A DNA stretch of 64,000 nt from Acinetobacter lwoffii. Its GTDB lineage: Bacteria; Pseudomonadota; Gammaproteobacteria; Pseudomonadales; Moraxellaceae. The position numbers and the translations under genes are program-made. Below the pieces are notes generated by a model. That model had not been told where the DNA came from and did no database searches. It saw nothing but the letters and a program-made list of their open reading frames with translations. Of this stretch, positions 4,144-48,166 are shown piece by piece (positions within the stretch are counted from its first letter, which is position 1; each line of letters begins with the position of its first letter). Location of the stretch: positions 2,728,001-2,792,000 of the forward strand of contig NZ_CP072549.1 in NCBI RefSeq assembly GCF_019343495.1, in the 5' to 3' direction.

Positions 4144-6897
4144 GTGATGAATGCGGCACAATTGCAGAAAACCTTAAGAGCTAGCCAATATACCGAACAG
4201 GTATTGGCCAATCACCAGAGTTTACTGGAACAGGATTATGCAATTGATCAGTTTCAAGGCTCACTCAGTCGGGAATATATTGATCAGCTGGTGCAGCACT
4301 GCATCCTGAATATAAGCGATGAAGCAACGTGGATGCGCGCAATGCGTATTCTGCGGGCTCGTTTGATGTTTCGCTGGATCTGGCAGGATGCCAATCAACT
4401 CACCGATGTTATTACCCTCACTCAAGAACTCTCCGATTTTGCCGATGCCTGCATCTGTGCGGCGAAAGATTTTGCCCGTATTCCGGTCGCTGCCAAGTAT
4501 GGCCAGCCGATTGGCTATAACGGAAAAGTCCAGGATCTGATTGTCATCGCGATGGGCAAACTCGGCGCCCAAGAACTCAATCTTTCCAGTGATATCGACT
4601 TGATTTTTGCCTTCGATGAGCAGGGTGAAACCGATGGGCGCAAATGTATTGATGTGCAGCAGTTTTGCATCCTGTGGGGACAAAAATTGATTCATTTGCT
4701 GGATCAGATCACGGCGGATGGTTTTGTATTCCGGGTGGATATGCGCCTGCGTCCCTGGGGCGATGGTTCAGCGCTGGCCATTAGCCACGCGGCCTTGGAA
4801 AAATATCTGAGCCAGCATGGGCGTGAATGGGAGCGTTATGCCTGGATTAAAGCACGGATTGTCAATCCAAGCCTGGAAGGCGATGAGCTGCTGGAGATGA
4901 CTCGTCCATTTGTATTCCGCAAGTACGTCGATTACAGCGCTTTTGAAGCCATGCGCGAAATGAAAGCCATGATCGAGCGTGAAGTACAACGCCGGAATAT
5001 AGAAGATGATATCAAGCTCGGAGCTGGCGGCATTCGCGAGGTTGAATTTATCGTGCAGGTGTTTCAGCTGATTTATGGTGGAGCCAAGCTTGAATTGCAG
5101 GATCGCCAGTGTCTGGTGAATCTGAATCATCTGGATGATGCCGAGTTACTGGATGAACAGGCGGTGCAGGATCTGGAAGATGCCTATTTATTCCTGCGCC
5201 GGGTTGAGCACGCGATTCAGGCCCTAAATGACCAGCAAACGCAATCATTACCGACAGAGCCAGAGTTAAGGGCGCGTATAACGGACACACTTGGTTTTGC
5301 GGATTGGGACAGCTTTATGGCATATCTCAATGAGAAACGTGACAAAGTGATGTATCAGTTTGATCATTTAATCAAGGAAAATGGCCCAGATACCCTGGTT
5401 GAAAGTTTTTCCCAGCTGGAAAAAAAACTCAAAGAAGTATTGGATGAGAATGCGAAGAATCTCGTTCATGAGTTTTGGAATGGGCATGCCTTAAAAAAAT
5501 TACCGGCAAAGGCGGTACAACGTTTAAAAACCTTCTGGCCACATTTAATTGAAGCCATTTTACAGTCAGATGATCCGCAGACAGCACTGGTACGACTGAT
5601 GCCCCTAGTCGAATCGGTGATGCGCCGTACGGTATATCTGGTGATGTTAATTGAGAGCAAAGGGGCTTTGCAGCGACTGGTGAAGATGGCCACGGTCAGC
5701 CCCTGGATTTGTGAAGAACTGACCCATTATCCGGTGCTACTGGATGAATTCCTGTCGATGGATTTTGAATTGCCGAAACGAAAGGATCTGGAAGATTCCT
5801 TGCGCCAGCAACTGTTACGGATTGAAATTGATCAGGTCGAAGACCAGATGCGGGTTTTGCGCCTGTTTAAAAAATCTAATGTTCTGGCCGTTGCCGCCAG
5901 TGATGTACTGGCAGAAAGCCCGCTGATGAAAGTTTCCGATGCCTTGACCGATATTGCTGAAGTATCGGTGAATGCAGCGCTGCATCTGGCCTATCAGATT
6001 GTGGCAAAAAAGCATGGTTTTCCACTGGATGCAGAAGGGCAGCGCTGTTCAGTCGAGCATACGGCTTTTGCAGTCATTGGTTATGGTAAAGTCGGTGGAA
6101 TTGAATTGGGTTATGGCTCGGATCTGGATCTGGTGTTTATTCACTATATGGGTGAACAGGCCGATACCGATGGACTTAAGCCGATCAGTGGCTTTGAATT
6201 TGCCATGCGGGTTGCACAAAAGTTTATGTCACTGATGACCACGCAAACCTTGGATGGACGTGTATATGAAGTCGATACCCGATTGCGTCCATCGGGCGAA
6301 GCTGGGCTTTTGGTCACCAGTTTAAAAGCCTTTGAACAGTATCAGTTCAAGAGTGCCTGGCTATGGGAGCATCAGGCCTTGGTACGAGCCCGCCCGATTG
6401 CGGGTGAAATGAGCTTACGGAAAAAGTTTGAAGTCTTGCGCCGGGATATTTTGATTCAGCCCCGTGATGAAAATTATGTACGGGCAGAAGTACTGAAAAT
6501 GCGTCAGAAAATGAAGGAGCATCTCGGTTCTTCTAAAGAGCAAAAAAAAGATGGTATTTTTCATTTAAAACAAGATGCAGGTGGTATCGTAGACATCGAA
6601 TTTATGGCACAGTATGCGGTGTTGGCTTGGAGTGGGACGAATAAAGATCTCGCCCATTTCTCCGACAATGTACGAATTCTTGAGGATGCCGCAAAATCAG
6701 GTTGCTTATCCAGCGACGATGCGACTGCTCTGATTCAAGCTTATCTCCGTGAACGCGCCGAGAGCCATCGCTTAGCCCTTGCAAATCAATCCATGCAAGT
6801 GTCTGCAAGCGACTGGCACGATACCCGAATGACCGTTTGCAAGTTATGGCAAAGACTAATTGATCCAAGTGCAGACTTTGTACTGGATAGTGAATAA
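4144..6897 (+). CDS. glnE: Glutamine synthetase adenylyltransferase / adenylyl-removing enzyme GlnE
   Basis: GlnE covalently modifies glutamine synthetase. Its C-terminal half adds AMP when nitrogen is plentiful and its N-terminal half removes it when nitrogen is scarce, under control of PII. The 917-residue length is close to the usual 920-950. Both nucleotidyltransferase centres are visible: LSSDIDLIF near residues 148-154 and GSDLDLVF near 658-665, each followed by the conserved D.RLRP motif (DMRLRPWG and DTRLRPSG). The start is GTG at 4144 or the adjacent ATG at 4147, with GGGGAAG upstream. A tnpB element ends only a few tens of bases before the ribosome-binding site, so transcription may now start within or read through that element. 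Confidence 0.96.
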   Translation: MMNAAQLQKTLRASQYTEQVLANHQSLLEQDYAIDQFQGSLSREYIDQLVQHCILNISDEATWMRAMRILRARLMFRWIWQDANQLTDVITLTQELSDFADACICAAKDFARIPVAAKYGQPIGYNGKVQDLIVIAMGKLGAQELNLSSDIDLIFAFDEQGETDGRKCIDVQQFCILWGQKLIHLLDQITADGFVFRVDMRLRPWGDGSALAISHAALEKYLSQHGREWERYAWIKARIVNPSLEGDELLEMTRPFVFRKYVDYSAFEAMREMKAMIEREVQRRNIEDDIKLGAGGIREVEFIVQVFQLIYGGAKLELQDRQCLVNLNHLDDAELLDEQAVQDLEDAYLFLRRVEHAIQALNDQQTQSLPTEPELRARITDTLGFADWDSFMAYLNEKRDKVMYQFDHLIKENGPDTLVESFSQLEKKLKEVLDENAKNLVHEFWNGHALKKLPAKAVQRLKTFWPHLIEAILQSDDPQTALVRLMPLVESVMRRTVYLVMLIESKGALQRLVKMATVSPWICEELTHYPVLLDEFLSMDFELPKRKDLEDSLRQQLLRIEIDQVEDQMRVLRLFKKSNVLAVAASDVLAESPLMKVSDALTDIAEVSVNAALHLAYQIVAKKHGFPLDAEGQRCSVEHTAFAVIGYGKVGGIELGYGSDLDLVFIHYMGEQADTDGLKPISGFEFAMRVAQKFMSLMTTQTLDGRVYEVDTRLRPSGEAGLLVTSLKAFEQYQFKSAWLWEHQALVRARPIAGEMSLRKKFEVLRRDILIQPRDENYVRAEVLKMRQKMKEHLGSSKEQKKDGIFHLKQDAGGIVDIEFMAQYAVLAWSGTNKDLAHFSDNVRILEDAAKSGCLSSDDATALIQAYLRERAESHRLALANQSMQVSASDWHDTRMTVCKLWQRLIDPSADFVLDSE

Positions 6898-36901: not shown

Positions 36902-38725
36902 TTAGTATTTAAAAGTGATTCCAATAGAAGCGAGGCGGTCACTGGCAATGTAATAAGATGTGGCATCATTAAATGCTGTTTTGTAATTGGTATCACCTAG
37001 GTTACGAATATTCACAAAGGTTTTTAAGTGAGGATTCACTTGCCAATAGGCATTCATATCAATGACTGCATAGCCTGGAATAAGGCCTTTATCCTCCTTA
37101 GATTTACCTTTAGCTACTAAAGACGTGGACGCACCATACTGACCATTATCCCAACCCAAGGTTAGGTTGAAGTTTTGGCGTGGGCGATTTGGCAAATCTT
37201 TATCTTTATCATCGTTCTTAGCTTGAATATACGCATATTCAGCATTGGCATAGAAGTCATCTTGTGTCAATTTTAAACCCAATTCAGCACCATTAAAGGT
37301 GGCGCTGTCCATATTTTCAAATACCCAGTTGGTATCTCCGTTAGAGACCATAATATTGTCGACTTGGGTTTGAAAAGCAGAACCGTATAATGTCATTGAT
37401 GGGGTGATTAGATGATCAAAACCAATTTCATAAGATACACTTTCTTCTGGTTGTAGGTCAGGATTACCGCCCCACCAAGCGGGTTCACTAATAATTTGCC
37501 CGACAACTGGGGCACGAAATGCTGTTCCGACATTGGCATAAATACTTGATGTATGGCTTAGGGTATGTCGAACAGCGAGTTGTCCTACACTATGTGTACC
37601 AAATTGCTGATTGTCTTCAACTCGAATACCCGCTTGGGTGCTGATGACATCATTTTGATATTGGTGCTGTAAATAATAGCCAGTGCTATCATTTTCATCT
37701 TTAAAGGTGTTTAAACTTTCAGCTTCTGTCTTATTGTAATGTACACCCGCAAGAAGTTTATGCTCGGCGTTGATTTGCCATTGAATATTGGAATCTATTT
37801 CTTGTTGTTCAGTGATTACAGTCGATGGATAAGCGCTTTGTACAATTACGTATTCATCTTCAAATTCTGATAGGCGAGTTTCCCACACTAAATTTGGATT
37901 AAGCTTAAAATAACCTTTAATATTATAAAGGCGATTGGTGAAATCATAAGCTTCTGGTGCACCATAAGAGAAGTAGTCGCCGTGACCTTCATTTTCTTTA
38001 AATTCCGCTGACAATCCAAAGTTGTCTTGATCAACGCCTAATTTCGCTGAATAGCCTTTTTGATCGAAACCTGCTTTTTTAGATTGATTGCTAATAATTT
38101 GGTCACCATCTGTTTCTAGGCGTTGCCCACGAATTTGGGCGTAATAGCCATTTTCAGCAGCATCAATACCGACAAGTGATTTGTAGGTACTTTTTTCACC
38201 GACTTCGACCGTTGTAAACGCACTATTTTCTGTCGGTGTTTTGGAAATGAGTTGAATTACACCTCCAATTGCATCAGTACCGTATTGTACCGATGCAGGG
38301 CCTTTTAGAATTTCAATTTGCTTAATGTCTGTCGTATCAATTAAATGTAAATTTGTACCTGCAACAGTTGCGGTATTGGAGCGCATACCATCTTGTAAAA
38401 TTAAGGTATGTGCGGCATTGCTGCCACGTAAGAAAATTGAAGCTGGTTGACCATAGCCACCCACTTGTTTGACTGATAGCGCTGCTTCTTTCGTTAATAA
38501 AGAAGGTAAGTCAGCAATAGGAGATTGTTGAATCGTTTTTTCATCAAGCACATTTAGACGCATCGGCACATTTTCAATATTTTGTTCGCTGCGTGATGCC
38601 GTGACCACAATGGTATCTAAAGATGCTTTCGCAACTTCTTGCTCGTTAGCAAAAACAGATGAAGTGGTACCCAACGCAAGTGCGATCGCACCTACCAAGG
38701 CAGTAGGTTGACAATGAAGTGACAT
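36902..38725 (-). CDS. btuB: Cobalamin outer membrane receptor BtuB
   Basis: This 607-residue TonB-dependent receptor has a signal peptide ending in SSVFA. It has a TonB box region (LDTIVVTASRSEQ), a plug domain (SIFLRGSNAAHTLILQDGMRS, IEILKGPASVQYGTDAIGGVI) and a barrel ending in ITFKY. The cobalamin riboswitch immediately upstream and the adenosyltransferase downstream support corrinoid transport as its job. The ATG at 38725 has GGGAG 8-9 bp upstream. A longer in-frame start at 38845 would translate through the riboswitch and is rejected. It depends on TonB energy and periplasmic binding proteins encoded elsewhere. Confidence 0.95.
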   Translation of the reverse strand: MSLHCQPTALVGAIALALGTTSSVFANEQEVAKASLDTIVVTASRSEQNIENVPMRLNVLDEKTIQQSPIADLPSLLTKEAALSVKQVGGYGQPASIFLRGSNAAHTLILQDGMRSNTATVAGTNLHLIDTTDIKQIEILKGPASVQYGTDAIGGVIQLISKTPTENSAFTTVEVGEKSTYKSLVGIDAAENGYYAQIRGQRLETDGDQIISNQSKKAGFDQKGYSAKLGVDQDNFGLSAEFKENEGHGDYFSYGAPEAYDFTNRLYNIKGYFKLNPNLVWETRLSEFEDEYVIVQSAYPSTVITEQQEIDSNIQWQINAEHKLLAGVHYNKTEAESLNTFKDENDSTGYYLQHQYQNDVISTQAGIRVEDNQQFGTHSVGQLAVRHTLSHTSSIYANVGTAFRAPVVGQIISEPAWWGGNPDLQPEESVSYEIGFDHLITPSMTLYGSAFQTQVDNIMVSNGDTNWVFENMDSATFNGAELGLKLTQDDFYANAEYAYIQAKNDDKDKDLPNRPRQNFNLTLGWDNGQYGASTSLVAKGKSKEDKGLIPGYAVIDMNAYWQVNPHLKTFVNIRNLGDTNYKTAFNDATSYYIASDRLASIGITFKY

Positions 38726-38759: not shown

Positions 38760-38775
38760 ATTGAGTTATAGAACA

Positions 38776-38961
38776 CAACAAGCAGGTTTCCGGACTTAAA
38801 TGTGCAAAGCAGCGACTTTGCTGTATATCCACCTTCCCACATCAAGATGCAGTGGTGTAAACCGAAGAGTTTAAATTGATAGACGTTTCATTTTTTACCG
38901 TTGCGGGGGCAGTGCTGGATTTACACCAGCTTCCCTAAAGCCTGAAGGCTTGGACTTGCTG
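38776..38961 (-). promoter_or_regulatory. Cobalamin riboswitch controlling btuB
   Basis: Read on the minus strand, the region contains the B12-box-type sequence GGGAAGCTGGTGTAAATCC followed by CTGCCCCCGCAACGGTAA and, further on, CCGGAAACCTGC. The outer P1 stem is CAGCAAG at 38955-38961 with CTTGTTG at 38776-38782. These are conserved aptamer elements. Binding of adenosylcobalamin would lower expression of btuB and probably of the adenosyltransferase gene. Confidence 0.93.
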
Positions 38962-39119
38962 CAAAGTGAGCGCAGTATAAAGTCAGTATGAGTTATATAC
39001 AATCTGCATAGAGAATAATCCGGATGAACTTTTACGCAAGTCAGAAAAATTGCATTACAATGATTTGCCCCAATCTTACAGATTGTTCAATACATTGGTA
39101 GATCTAGAGCCAACATAAT

Positions 39120-44297: not shown

Positions 44298-45452
44298 ATG
44301 CAACCGAATTATTTTCAGCAATTAACCCAGGATTTAAAACAGCAGGGAACAGGCACGCCGCAACTGATTTTAGATGTAAAAACTTATCAATATAATTTGG
44401 ACTATGTACAGTCAAAATTACCTACGCAGTTAAAACCACGCTTGGTGGTGAAATCCTTGGCCAATATGCAGTTGCTTAAACTGGCTAGTGAAAAACTGAA
44501 TACTCAGCGTTTTATGCTGTTTCATCTTCCGCATCTCGCAGAGATTATCCAAGCCTTTGAACAAGCCGATATTTTGCTGGGTAAGTCTATGCCGATCCGG
44601 GCAGTAGAACTGTTTTATCAAAGCAATGGTCAACACGATATTTATATTCAATGGCTGATTGATGATCTGGGGCGATTACAACAATATCTGCAGCTCGCTC
44701 AACAACTCGACATCAGTTTGAATGTAAATATTGAAATTGATGTCGGTTTGCATCGTGGTGGAGTACAAAATTCGCAGCAATTTGTGGCATTGCTTAAGCT
44801 GATTCAACAACATTCAAAGCATTTAAAACTATCAGGTTTGATGGGCTATGACGCGCATGTCGCAAAGTTACCAAAAATCATAACAAGTCCTGAAAAAAGT
44901 TATCAACAATCGCAACACACTTATCAACACTACAAAGCCATTCTTCAGCAGCAATTCCCGGATTTATGGCATGAGGGTCTGTGCTTTAACGGAGGTGGAA
45001 GTCCGACCTTTATGCAGCATTGCCAGCAGAGCGAATGCAATGATCTGGCTTTTGGTTCCATGTTGGTCAAGCCGAGTGATTTTGATTTGGATCATTTATC
45101 GGAACTCAAATGTGCACTCTGGATTGCCACTCCAGTATTGAAAGTTTTGCCCTATAGCCAATTGCCCGGTTTGGAGCTACTGAATCATCTTCCACATAAA
45201 TATAAAGCTTTGTTTGTGTATGGTGGTTATTGGCGAGCAGATTATATTTATTCTGAAAAAAGCCGGCCGCATGTGTTGTATGGCCGCAGCAGCAATCAGG
45301 AAATGCTTCAGGTGCCTAAACCGTGTGACATTGCAGTGGATGATTATGTGTTTTTAAGGCCGACTCAGAGTGAAGCGATTATTCCGCAATTCGCTCAGCT
45401 TTATGCTTACATACAGAGCAAATTCGAAATATGGGATAGCTTTAGAGAATAA
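44298..45452 (+). CDS. PLP-dependent alanine racemase/D-threonine aldolase-like (DSD1-type) enzyme
   Basis: This 384-residue fold-type III PLP enzyme has the PLP lysine in RLVVKSLANMQLL (about 52), the barrel segments NIEIDVGLHRGGV and LSGLMGYDAHV, the phosphate region CFNGGGSPTF and a C-terminal beta domain (VDDYVFLRPTQSEAI). Relatives cleave D-3-hydroxy amino acids or dehydrate D-serine. The C-terminal Cys/His zinc site is less clear than in D-serine dehydratase. It is coupled to the lactone oxidase gene. The ATG at 44298 has TAGGA 7-8 bp upstream. Confidence 0.85.
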   Translation: MQPNYFQQLTQDLKQQGTGTPQLILDVKTYQYNLDYVQSKLPTQLKPRLVVKSLANMQLLKLASEKLNTQRFMLFHLPHLAEIIQAFEQADILLGKSMPIRAVELFYQSNGQHDIYIQWLIDDLGRLQQYLQLAQQLDISLNVNIEIDVGLHRGGVQNSQQFVALLKLIQQHSKHLKLSGLMGYDAHVAKLPKIITSPEKSYQQSQHTYQHYKAILQQQFPDLWHEGLCFNGGGSPTFMQHCQQSECNDLAFGSMLVKPSDFDLDHLSELKCALWIATPVLKVLPYSQLPGLELLNHLPHKYKALFVYGGYWRADYIYSEKSRPHVLYGRSSNQEMLQVPKPCDIAVDDYVFLRPTQSEAIIPQFAQLYAYIQSKFEIWDSFRE

Positions 45453-45640
45453 AAACAAAGCCGAAAATTTCCTGATCTGAGTAAAGGCAAAGTATTGGCA
45501 AATAAATTCAAAATGAGCCAAATCGCGAATTTTCTAGGTGAAAAGGTTTAATCCCGTGGCTAAGACGTGTAAAATTCAAGTCGATTTTTATTTATCCACC
45601 GTTTTTATCTTTTGAGGTTCTCCTCGATCATAATCTCGCG
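45453..45640. other. Upstream part of the thrS leader and promoter region
   Basis: This AT-rich region before thrS holds a possible -10 TAAAAT at 45570-45575 and a small hairpin GAGG/CCTC at 45614-45625. The notable structure is the hairpin immediately downstream, listed separately. Confidence 0.45.
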
Positions 45641-45669
45641 GTGATATGCCCCATGGTACGGGGCATCAC
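45641..45669 (+). promoter_or_regulatory. thrS leader hairpin mimicking the tRNA-Thr anticodon arm
   Basis: The sequence ATGCCCC-ATGGTAC-GGGGCAT at 45646-45666 forms a 7-bp stem with a 7-nt loop, extended by GTG/CAC across a 2-nt bulge. In anticodon-loop numbering the loop has U33, G34-G35-U36 and A37. That gives the tRNA-Thr anticodon GGU on a CCCC/GGGG stem. It ends 20 bp before the thrS ATG, next to the TAAGGA ribosome-binding site. In Escherichia coli threonyl-tRNA synthetase represses its own translation by binding a tRNA-like operator at this position. Confidence 0.75.
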
Positions 45670-45686
45670 TCCTTAAGGATTTTCTT

Positions 45687-47609
45687 ATGCCAATTATCAC
45701 TTTACCCAATGGCGATCAAAAACAATTTGATCACGCCGTATCTGTGATGGACGTTGCGCTTAGCATCGGACCTGGTCTTGCAAAAAATACAGTGGCAGGT
45801 CGTGTAAACGATCGTCTTGTTGACGCGTCTGACTTGATTACTGAAGATGCAACCTTACAAATTATCACGCCTAAAGACGAAGCAGGCGTGGAAATTATCC
45901 GTCACTCTTGCGCGCATTTGGTCGGTCATGCTGTTAAGCAATTGTTCCCAGAAGCGAAAATGGTAATTGGTCCTGTCATTGAAGAAGGTTTCTACTATGA
46001 CATCTGGATGCCACGTCCATTCACATTAGACGACATGGCAGCGATTGAAGAGCGTATGAAAAAGCTCATCGATCAAGACTATGAAGTTGTGAAAAAAATG
46101 ACTCCTCGTGATGAAGTGATTGCAGAATTCACAGCACGTGGCGAAGAATACAAATTACGCTTGATTGCAGACATGCCTGAAGAAACTCAAATGGGCTTGT
46201 ACTACCATCAGGATTATTTGGATATGTGTCGTGGTCCGCACGTTCCAAACACTAAATTCTTAAAATCATTCAAGCTAACTAAAATCTCTGGCGCTTACTG
46301 GCGCGGTGATGCGAAAAACGAACAGTTACAACGTATTTACGGTACCGCTTGGGCAGACAAGAAACAGCTTGCAGCGTATGTAAAACGTATTGAAGAAGCA
46401 GAAAAACGCGATCACCGTAAAATTGGTAAAGCGCTTGATTTGTTCCATATGCAAGAAGAAGCACCCGGTATGGTGTTCTGGCATCCAAATGGCTGGACCA
46501 TTTATCAAGTGCTTGAACAATACATGCGTAAAGTTCAGCAAGACAATGGCTACGAAGAAATCCGTACCCCTCAGGTGGTTGATTTCACGCTCTGGGAAAA
46601 ATCAGGACATGCTGCAAACTATGCAGACAACATGTTCACCACACATTCTGAAAATCGCAACTATGCGGTGAAGCCAATGAACTGTCCTTGTCACGTGCAA
46701 GTGTTCAACCAAGGCTTGAAGTCATACCGTGATCTTCCTATACGTTTGGCAGAGTTTGGTTCATGTCATCGTAACGAACCATCAGGTTCTTTACATGGCA
46801 TTATGCGTGTGCGTGGCTTTACTCAGGATGACGCGCATATTTTCTGTACCAAAGAACAGATTGGTCCTGAAGTTGCAGACTTTATCAAATTGACACTGGA
46901 TGTATACAAAGATTTTGGCTTCGAAGAAGTACAAATGAAGTTGTCGACGCGTCCTGAAAAACGTGTGGGTGATGACAAACTTTGGGATATGGCAGAAAAA
47001 TCTTTGGCAGATGCTTTAGATGCTGCAGGTCTTGAGTGGGAACTTCAACCAGGCGAAGGCGCATTCTACGGTCCGAAGATTGAATTCTCTCTGAAAGACT
47101 GCTTAGGTCGTGTCTGGCAGTGTGGTACCATTCAGTGTGACTTTAACTTGCCAGAACGTCTAGATGCTTCTTATGTCACTGAAGATAATGACCGCGATCA
47201 GCCAGTAATGTTACATCGTGCAATTCTTGGCAGTTTCGAGCGTTTTATTGGTATACTGATCGAACACTACGCAGGCTTCATGCCACCTTGGTTGGCACCA
47301 ATGCAAGCGTGTGTGATGAACATTACCGATTCTCAAGCTGAGGCATGTGAGTCAGTCGTCGCAAAACTTAAAGAAAACGGTATCCGTGCAATTTCTGACT
47401 TGAGAAATGAGAAAATCGGCTTTAAGATTCGTGAACGTACATTAGAGCGTATTCCTTACTTACTGGTACTTGGGGACCGTGAAGTAGAGGAAGGTACCGT
47501 AAACGTGCGTACCCGCTCAGGAACAAATTTGGGTACTATGTCAATCGATGCTTTCGTTGACCTAGTAAAAGCAGCCGTAGCCGAACGCGGCCGGTACATT
47601 GTGGAGTAA
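45687..47609 (+). CDS. thrS: Threonine-tRNA ligase
   Basis: This class II synthetase, 640 residues, charges tRNA-Thr and edits serine. It has an N-terminal TGS domain (1-60) and an editing domain with [20 protein letters not shown]. The zinc-binding catalytic core shows [12 protein letters not shown], motif 2 [31 protein letters not shown] and motif 3 [21 protein letters not shown]. An anticodon-binding domain completes it. The stop overlaps the infC ribosome-binding site, so thrS and infC are coupled. The leader hairpin suggests translational self-repression. Confidence 0.98.
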
Positions 47610-47614
47610 CAGCG

Positions 47615-48166
47615 ATTAAACAGCCTGACCGTAATCAACAGGGCGGTAACAAATCAAACCGTCCTGCCTTGAATGATGAAATTCGTGCGAAAGAAGTCCG
47701 TCTTGTCGACGAAAATGGTGAGCAGAAAGGGATTGTAAGCTTAGCTGACGCCCTGCGCGCAGCAGAAAGTGTTGAGCTTGATCTTGTAGAGATCGTAGCA
47801 AACGCTGAGCCACCAGTATGTAAGATCATGGACTTCAACAAGCATTTGTTTGATCTTAAGCAAAAGCAGAAAGAAGCGAAGAAAAAACAACATCAAGTCC
47901 AGGTGAAAGAAATCAAGCTACGCCCGGGTACTGATGTTGGCGATTACAACGTAAAACTACGTGCAATCATCAAGTTCCTTGAAGAAGGTAACAAGGTGAA
48001 AATCACGCTTCGTTTCCGTGGTCGTGAAATGGCGCACCAACAGTTGGGTCTAGCTCAATTGCAAAAAATTGAAGCTGACGTGGCTGAATTCGGTACTGTT
48101 GAGCAGATGCCGAAAATGGAAGGCCGTCAAATGGGTATGTTACTTGGTCCTAAAAAGAAAAAGTAA
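47615..48166 (+). CDS. infC: Translation initiation factor IF-3 (AUU start)
   Basis: IF-3 keeps ribosomal subunits apart and checks the start codon and initiator tRNA. The 183-residue protein starts at ATT 47615, read as Met, with GGAG 9 bp upstream inside the end of thrS. The residues that follow ([23 protein letters not shown]) complete the N-domain. The first ATG or TTG start in frame would remove 18 residues, so it is too short. The linker [24 protein letters not shown] and the C-domain [13 protein letters not shown] are typical. AUU starts make infC self-regulated because IF-3 rejects non-standard codons. A terminator follows, so rpmI is not in this transcript. Confidence 0.96.

Follow-up and report, generated by a model that had tools for sequence, protein, structure and literature searches.

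The thrS operator of Escherichia coli is a classic example of an mRNA that imitates a tRNA. In the K-12 leader, a hairpin (GTGATCT-TTCGTGT-GGGTCAC-CACT), which we take to be operator "domain 2", where binding of threonyl-tRNA synthetase (ThrRS) blocks the ribosome, is found at the same place as the element described below, and domain 4 is a second ThrRS-binding arm. ThrRS must accept all threonine isoacceptors; it therefore recognizes G35 and U36 and is indifferent to the base at position 34. T-box leaders of Gram-positive aminoacyl-tRNA synthetase genes also place a synthetase gene under the control of a stand-in for its tRNA; however, they base-pair with tRNA, whereas the leader RNA considered here imitates it. 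We analyzed a 64,000-nt stretch of Acinetobacter lwoffii DNA (NZ_CP072549.1, positions 2,728,001 to 2,792,000 of the forward strand; referred to as the window), in whose thrS leader an earlier note, made from the letters alone, had proposed a copy of the tRNA-Thr(GGU) anticodon arm.

The thrS gene (45687..47609; plus strand, as are all features of its leader) is an ORF of 640 amino acids that matches threonyl-tRNA synthetase chains in PDB. The hairpin ATGCCCC-ATGGTAC-GGGGCAT, read directly from the letters at 45646-45666, consists of a 5' arm (ATGCCCC, 45646..45652; pair probabilities of 0.66-1.0), an anticodon-like loop of 7 nt (ATGGTAC, 45653..45659; A32, U33, G34, G35, U36, A37, and C38 in tRNA numbering), and a 3' arm (GGGGCAT, 45660..45666; from the sequence read and the stem comparison). 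The 7-bp stem, the loop AUGGUAC, and the distance of 20 nt between the stem and the thrS ATG (45687) were thus as previously described; AAGGA at 45675-45679, 8 nt from the stem end, is likely the ribosome-binding site of thrS. The complete conserved operator element (45643..45671) adds the outer pairs G45643-C45671 and A45644-U45670 and a 1x3 internal loop, in which 45645 is opposite CAC (45667-45669); CAC and the T (U) after it occupy 45667..45670. The region originally singled out contained CAC and the flanking A-U pair, neither of which was named in its description. Downstream of thrS, infC appears by eye to start at ATT 47615-47617 (ATTAAACAG...), as in E. coli IF3, while the ORF lister placed the start at TTG 47669. 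Elsewhere in the window, a cobalamin riboswitch was found at 38764-38974 on the minus strand (87.6 bits).

The Rfam tRNA search of the own genome gave 86 matches at 30 loci, and Thr(UGU) and Thr(GGU) were present among the 10 that were typed; a pattern search of the same genome for tRNA-Thr found none. The anticodon arms are CTCCC-TTGGTAA-GGGAG for tRNA-Thr(GGU) and ACTGA-CTTGTAA-TCAGT for tRNA-Thr(UGU), and the mimic loop agrees with them at U33, G35, U36, and A37. The loop letters U33, GGU, and A37 were assigned correctly in the earlier note, and the folding of the RNA into an arm like that of the tRNA-Thr anticodon is supported by comparison.

The element shares with E. coli domain 2 the gene, the site beside the ribosome-binding site, the 7-bp stem, the 7-nt xGU loop with a purine at position 37, CAC on the 3' side, the A and U flanks, and a conserved receptor protein. 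It differs in the loop (AUGGUAC; UUCGUGU in E. coli) and in the outer helix, which is 2 bp in Acinetobacter and 6 bp in E. coli; furthermore, in the predicted window fold, G45643 pairs upstream and not with C45671. The element at 45643-45671 is very probably the Acinetobacter copy of the core of the E. coli thrS operator, at which ThrRS would bind the arm and block the ribosome; the proposal of a tRNA-Thr mimic beside the thrS ribosome-binding site was supported in this respect. Since domain 4 has no clear mimic counterpart in Acinetobacter, control may be of another strength or stoichiometry than in E. coli. The ThrRS itself has 400 of the 642 E. coli residues identical and is 98% identical (best segment) to the enzyme of Acinetobacter sp. 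ANC 3781 over residues 1-640. In the anticodon-binding domain, 55 of 108 residues are common with E. coli, including D549, N575, K577, R583, R589, E600, and R609.

By analogy, free ThrRS, in excess over tRNA-Thr, would use its anticodon-binding domain to bind the loop, recognizing G35 and U36 but not position 34. The bound enzyme would cover the mRNA from approximately -44 to -16 and exclude the 30S subunit from the Shine-Dalgarno sequence (-12 to -8), and thrS translation would fall; tRNA-Thr would displace ThrRS and relieve the repression, as in the E. coli system. The invariant CAC and its A-U neighbor probably present the arm or are gripped by the enzyme.

The shape of the hairpin by itself is unremarkable: hairpins of 7 bp with a 7-nt loop numbered 105 on the plus strand and 85 on the minus strand of the window. 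A UxGUA loop was found in two of the former (at 6076 and 45646), and order-1 Markov sequences of 64 kb gave a mean of 0.2 such hairpins on the plus strand (60 trials). When 6 of 7 pairs, UxGUA, and a following CAC were required, there was one other plus-strand site, at 36973, in which the next base was C, not T. A chance hairpin was ruled out by conservation across leaders: position and conservation, with the element before thrS in all 33 Acinetobacter leaders examined, make it more than chance.

Conservation was assessed in 212 thrS leaders, consisting of 110 from the first collections, E. coli K-12, one further Acinetobacter leader (L248, see below), and 100 places of a class sample, drawn from 150 listed thrS places (274 genomes; 62 model-matched and 38 unmatched); the set is enriched for model matches and includes close relatives (96 distinct 24-mers, and 122 distinct elements with flanks). 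Using a shape rule that ignores the loop letters (at least 6 of 7 pairs, a 7-nt loop, CAC directly after, and at most 80 nt from the start), the element was found in 173 of them. Although this selection was blind to the loop, G35-U36 was present in 173/173. Position 34, on the other hand, was G in 86, C in 60, U in 18, and A in 9; U33 was found in 163/173, and position 37 was A in 154, G in 14, and U in 5. Such a pattern (G35-U36 fixed, position 34 free, mostly a purine at 37) is as expected of a ligand of ThrRS, and thus supports reading by this enzyme. A hairpin that merely shapes ribosome access, as a standby site or through mRNA stability, with no ThrRS binding, would also directly adjoin the ribosome-binding site, and structure near starts is generally common; however, pure structure needs no fixed G35-U36 beside a free position 34 and gives no reason for such regular placement before thrS, and we regard this explanation as unlikely.

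The remaining 39 leaders had no element under the shape rule, among them one of Moraxella (L038) and one from a Psychrobacter MAG (L055), in which, as in L107, none was visible by eye; to judge from these leaders, the operator element is dispensable in some lineages. Seven of the 39 keep a looser hairpin with GU in register, a number to be read beside up to five for other dinucleotides. Five other Psychrobacter leaders read ATGATTG-ATGGTTG-CAATCAT (four) or a UGU form (one), all with U37. Its presence before thrS of E. coli K-12 shows that the element is not peculiar to Acinetobacter.

Within Acinetobacter, the anticodon-like triplet was GGU in 14, UGU in 11, and CGU in 8 of the 33 leaders; G35 and U36 were found in all 33, U33 in 31, A37 in 29, and G37 in 4. 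The earlier suggestion that the hairpin copies specifically the GGU isoacceptor, in contrast to CGU in E. coli, was consequently not upheld: position 34 varies, so that GGU versus CGU is no difference in logic. In the family sample, the model matched 148 of 199 genomes. A hand count gave 65 Acinetobacter rows with a match, and a single genus member without one (G409) appeared among the 20 of the 51 non-matches that were listed; since the list is ordered by kinship, the other 31 presumably contain no Acinetobacter genome. The leader of G409 (L248) nonetheless has the element, ATGCACT-AATGTAG-GGTGCAT, with an altered yet paired stem: one pair is swapped to A-U, a within-genus change that preserves the arm. 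Among other Moraxellaceae leaders with no model match, L249 reads by eye ATATTTG-ATTGTAA-CAAATAT-CACT before thrS, and no element was seen by eye in L250-L253.

Covariation was computed on 45 distinct elements, picked by a rule that included GT and CAC, in which 96.5% of the stem pair cells were standard. Two-sided changes were found in 5 of the 7 stem pairs; the cells showing them numbered 53, whereas shuffles gave 20.9 (0/500 reached 53) and slid controls 0-7. The covariation score of 0.495 exceeded those of all 500 shuffles (mean 0.255) and of the slid controls (maximum 0.141); additional kinds of stem pair were no more numerous than in shuffles (10 and 10.3, respectively). The stem is therefore conserved through base pairing, beyond sequence alone. 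Among the features that the earlier note expected from an alignment of leaders, compensatory changes in the stem were thus present, whereas U33-GGU-A37 was not invariant and only G35-U36 was.

The same data bear on two other explanations. The arms form an inverted repeat, as would be expected if a transcription factor bound the site as a DNA palindrome; however, G-U pairs in the stem of 29/33 Acinetobacter leaders (141/173 overall) make the repeat imperfect as DNA, and the site would be downstream of the likely promoter, so that we consider a DNA operator extremely improbable. A short upstream ORF, translated from the ATG or GTG of the stem and controlling thrS, would fit the stem starting with one of these triplets in 153/173 elements and the stop (CACCACTGA or CACCACTAG) at the ninth triplet of the stem frame in 88/173, none of them in Acinetobacter; this stop probably just follows from the fixed CACU. 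However, the frame is open up to the thrS start in 32/33 Acinetobacter leaders (that of L248 stops at the third triplet), GCG is the first triplet in 19/173, and stem changes track base pairing, all of which make control by such an ORF very unlikely.

Conservation of the ThrRS-binding arm proposed above extends beyond the stem. CAC was part of the selection rule; the U after it was not selected for and is present in 173/173, as is an A at the second position upstream of the stem. Since these flanking bases never vary, there is no covariation evidence for their pairing. The next outward pair was standard in 113 of the 122 distinct elements (C-G in 83, G-C, which is the Acinetobacter form, in 20, U-G in 9, and U-A in 1) and missing in 9, mainly Pseudomonas types. 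The mean length of the outer helix was 2.51, compared with 2.09 in shuffles, and the helix is weak beyond two pairs; in Acinetobacter, G45643 can pair upstream instead. From these comparisons, the conserved unit spans 45643-45671 (approximately 29 nt) and is predicted to contain a 1x3 internal loop.

The model of this element was specific for the site in the own genome, scoring 35.2 bits against 14.1 for the next best. Among the 274 class-sample genomes, 118 had a match at E 0.05 or better. Of the 75 matches with at least 23 bits, 65 were located 9-22 nt before thrS and 5 elsewhere, among the 70 checked: 57 lay before a listed thrS and 2 elsewhere, and the 16 without a listed place comprised 8 before thrS, 3 not before it, and 5 unchecked. 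When weaker matches were also counted, a match upstream of thrS was present in 63 of the 150 genomes for which a thrS place was listed, so that many Gammaproteobacteria are without the element or have diverged forms; real copies missed by the model were L248 and, by eye, L249. Among 36 model matches that were fetched, 9 were 10-21 nt before thrS and 27 had no thrS within about 2 kb (tblastn). A stop-free frame was no discriminator, most of the 9 true sites also sitting in one. For 19 of the 27 off-target matches (all but L324 and L340-L346), the overlying frames were compared with Pfam, families being assigned per frame, not per match position: 15 contained a known family belonging to an unrelated gene, and 4 (L315, L317, L318, and L321) contained none. 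Given these 15/19, the off-target matches were taken as chance, and a wider ThrRS regulon was rejected. In the phylum sample (200 genomes), the out-of-class maximum of 27.3 bits (L269) was in a dihydroxy-acid dehydratase frame; this typing covers L269 alone, and 11 other out-of-class genomes also have matches.

Rfam appears to have no curated entry for the motif: no family matched the leader (45500-45720) up to E 5, and with Rfam 15 the E. coli thrS leader gave none above threshold, snoU13 being below its gathering score. In Gram-positive bacteria, thrS is among the genes controlled by T-boxes; however, the leader had no Rfam match, the window had no T-box at gathering score (the cobalamin riboswitch was its sole match at that level), and a terminator scan of 45400-45720 was empty, so that there is next to no likelihood of either a T-box riboswitch or a terminator/attenuator of transcription.

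Around the proposed operator, the leader carries further structure. The region 45560-45720 had a fold z of -2.34, with 5/200 shuffles equally good or better. TGTAAAAT at 45568..45575 could be an extended -10 element of the thrS promoter, recurring in many Acinetobacter leaders (by eye, uncounted); a sigma-70 promoter scan of 45400-45720 gave no match. TCCTTAAGGA (45670..45679), a palindrome with the Shine-Dalgarno sequence AAGGA, is identical in 33/33 Acinetobacter leaders and may fold as a weak 3-bp hairpin, the probability of its UCC/GGA pairing being just 0.16-0.19 in the window fold. By eye, the other genera of the set read differently in this stretch. Upstream, MFE and RNAalifold predicted a domain (45597..45643) closed by CACCG (45597-45601) and CGGTG (45639-45643), which encloses a hairpin (45612-45617/45622-45627) with a TTCT loop and no threonine-like loop. 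Among 30 aligned leaders, each pair of the outer stem is retained in 29 or 30; however, because there are almost no two-sided changes, and because by eye L020 has a different hairpin in its place and L248 has no evident counterpart, this domain is a weaker feature. Both it and TCCTTAAGGA are features of Acinetobacter, unlike E. coli.

The number of mimics varies among lineages. Using a strict rule, a second upstream mimic was found in 0/33 Acinetobacter, 0/5 Psychrobacter, 39/41 Pseudomonas-type (Pseudomonas, Stutzerimonas, and Halopseudomonas), 2/28 other, and 6/65 class-sample leaders; these counts are lower bounds, xGUA hairpins missed by the rule being seen by eye, e.g., in L158, L181, and L228, and all mimic rules are blind to 8-nt loops such as that in the fold of E. 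coli's own upstream hairpin. A loose rule gave 3/33 in Acinetobacter (L002, L008, and L022; GCTGTGC in a 5-bp stem), which is background, other loop dinucleotides also reaching 3/33. Looser rules gave 39-40/41 in the Pseudomonas types (other dinucleotides at most 3) and 8 and 9/65 in the class sample, where another dinucleotide stood at 28-32, hence no enrichment. Pseudomonas two-mimic leaders have the same proximal element, e.g., GTGACCT-TTGGTAG-GGGTCAC-CACT, and differ from Acinetobacter in the extra upstream mimic; such leaders of Pseudomonas and relatives are not known to have been described before. The upstream hairpin in this group (L041-L088) reads, e.g., CCTGCC-ACTGTGA-GGCAGG, with xGUR in register in 39/41. 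One class-sample leader (L219, from genome G073) has three tandem anticodon-arm mimics before thrS: TGGCCC-CTCGTAT-CGGTCA, GCGGCCT-TTGGTAG-TGGTCGC, and GCGCTCC-AACGTAT-GGATCGC.

In Acinetobacter, the leader apparently relies on one mimic, accompanied upstream by a hairpin that is not a mimic. The previous description of one clear hairpin as a simplified operator holds as far as no second mimic was found; on the other hand, the non-mimic hairpin lies upstream, and 57-59 of the 65 class-sample leaders are also without a second mimic, so that the one-mimic state is common there and no special simplification. A true single-site operator is conceivable, in which the sole mimic would be taken up by one subunit of the ThrRS dimer, and a second recognition determinant, formed by the invariant CACU and the A opposite it, would make another mimic unnecessary; we put this forward tentatively as the less probable reading.

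This kind of element is already known, well supported, and wider than the earlier note supposed; interest remains in the varying number of mimics and in why CACU and the A opposite it are invariant. The comparison separates the fixed parts (G35, U36, CACU, and the facing A) from the free ones (position 34, the stem sequence, and the mimic number), and fixed versus free parts tell what the enzyme must read. The question of one or two mimics becomes testable in Acinetobacter baylyi ADP1, a laboratory strain. If the single-site reading were true, the number of mimics (one, two, or, in L219, three) would be an evolved dial of feedback strength in Gammaproteobacteria.
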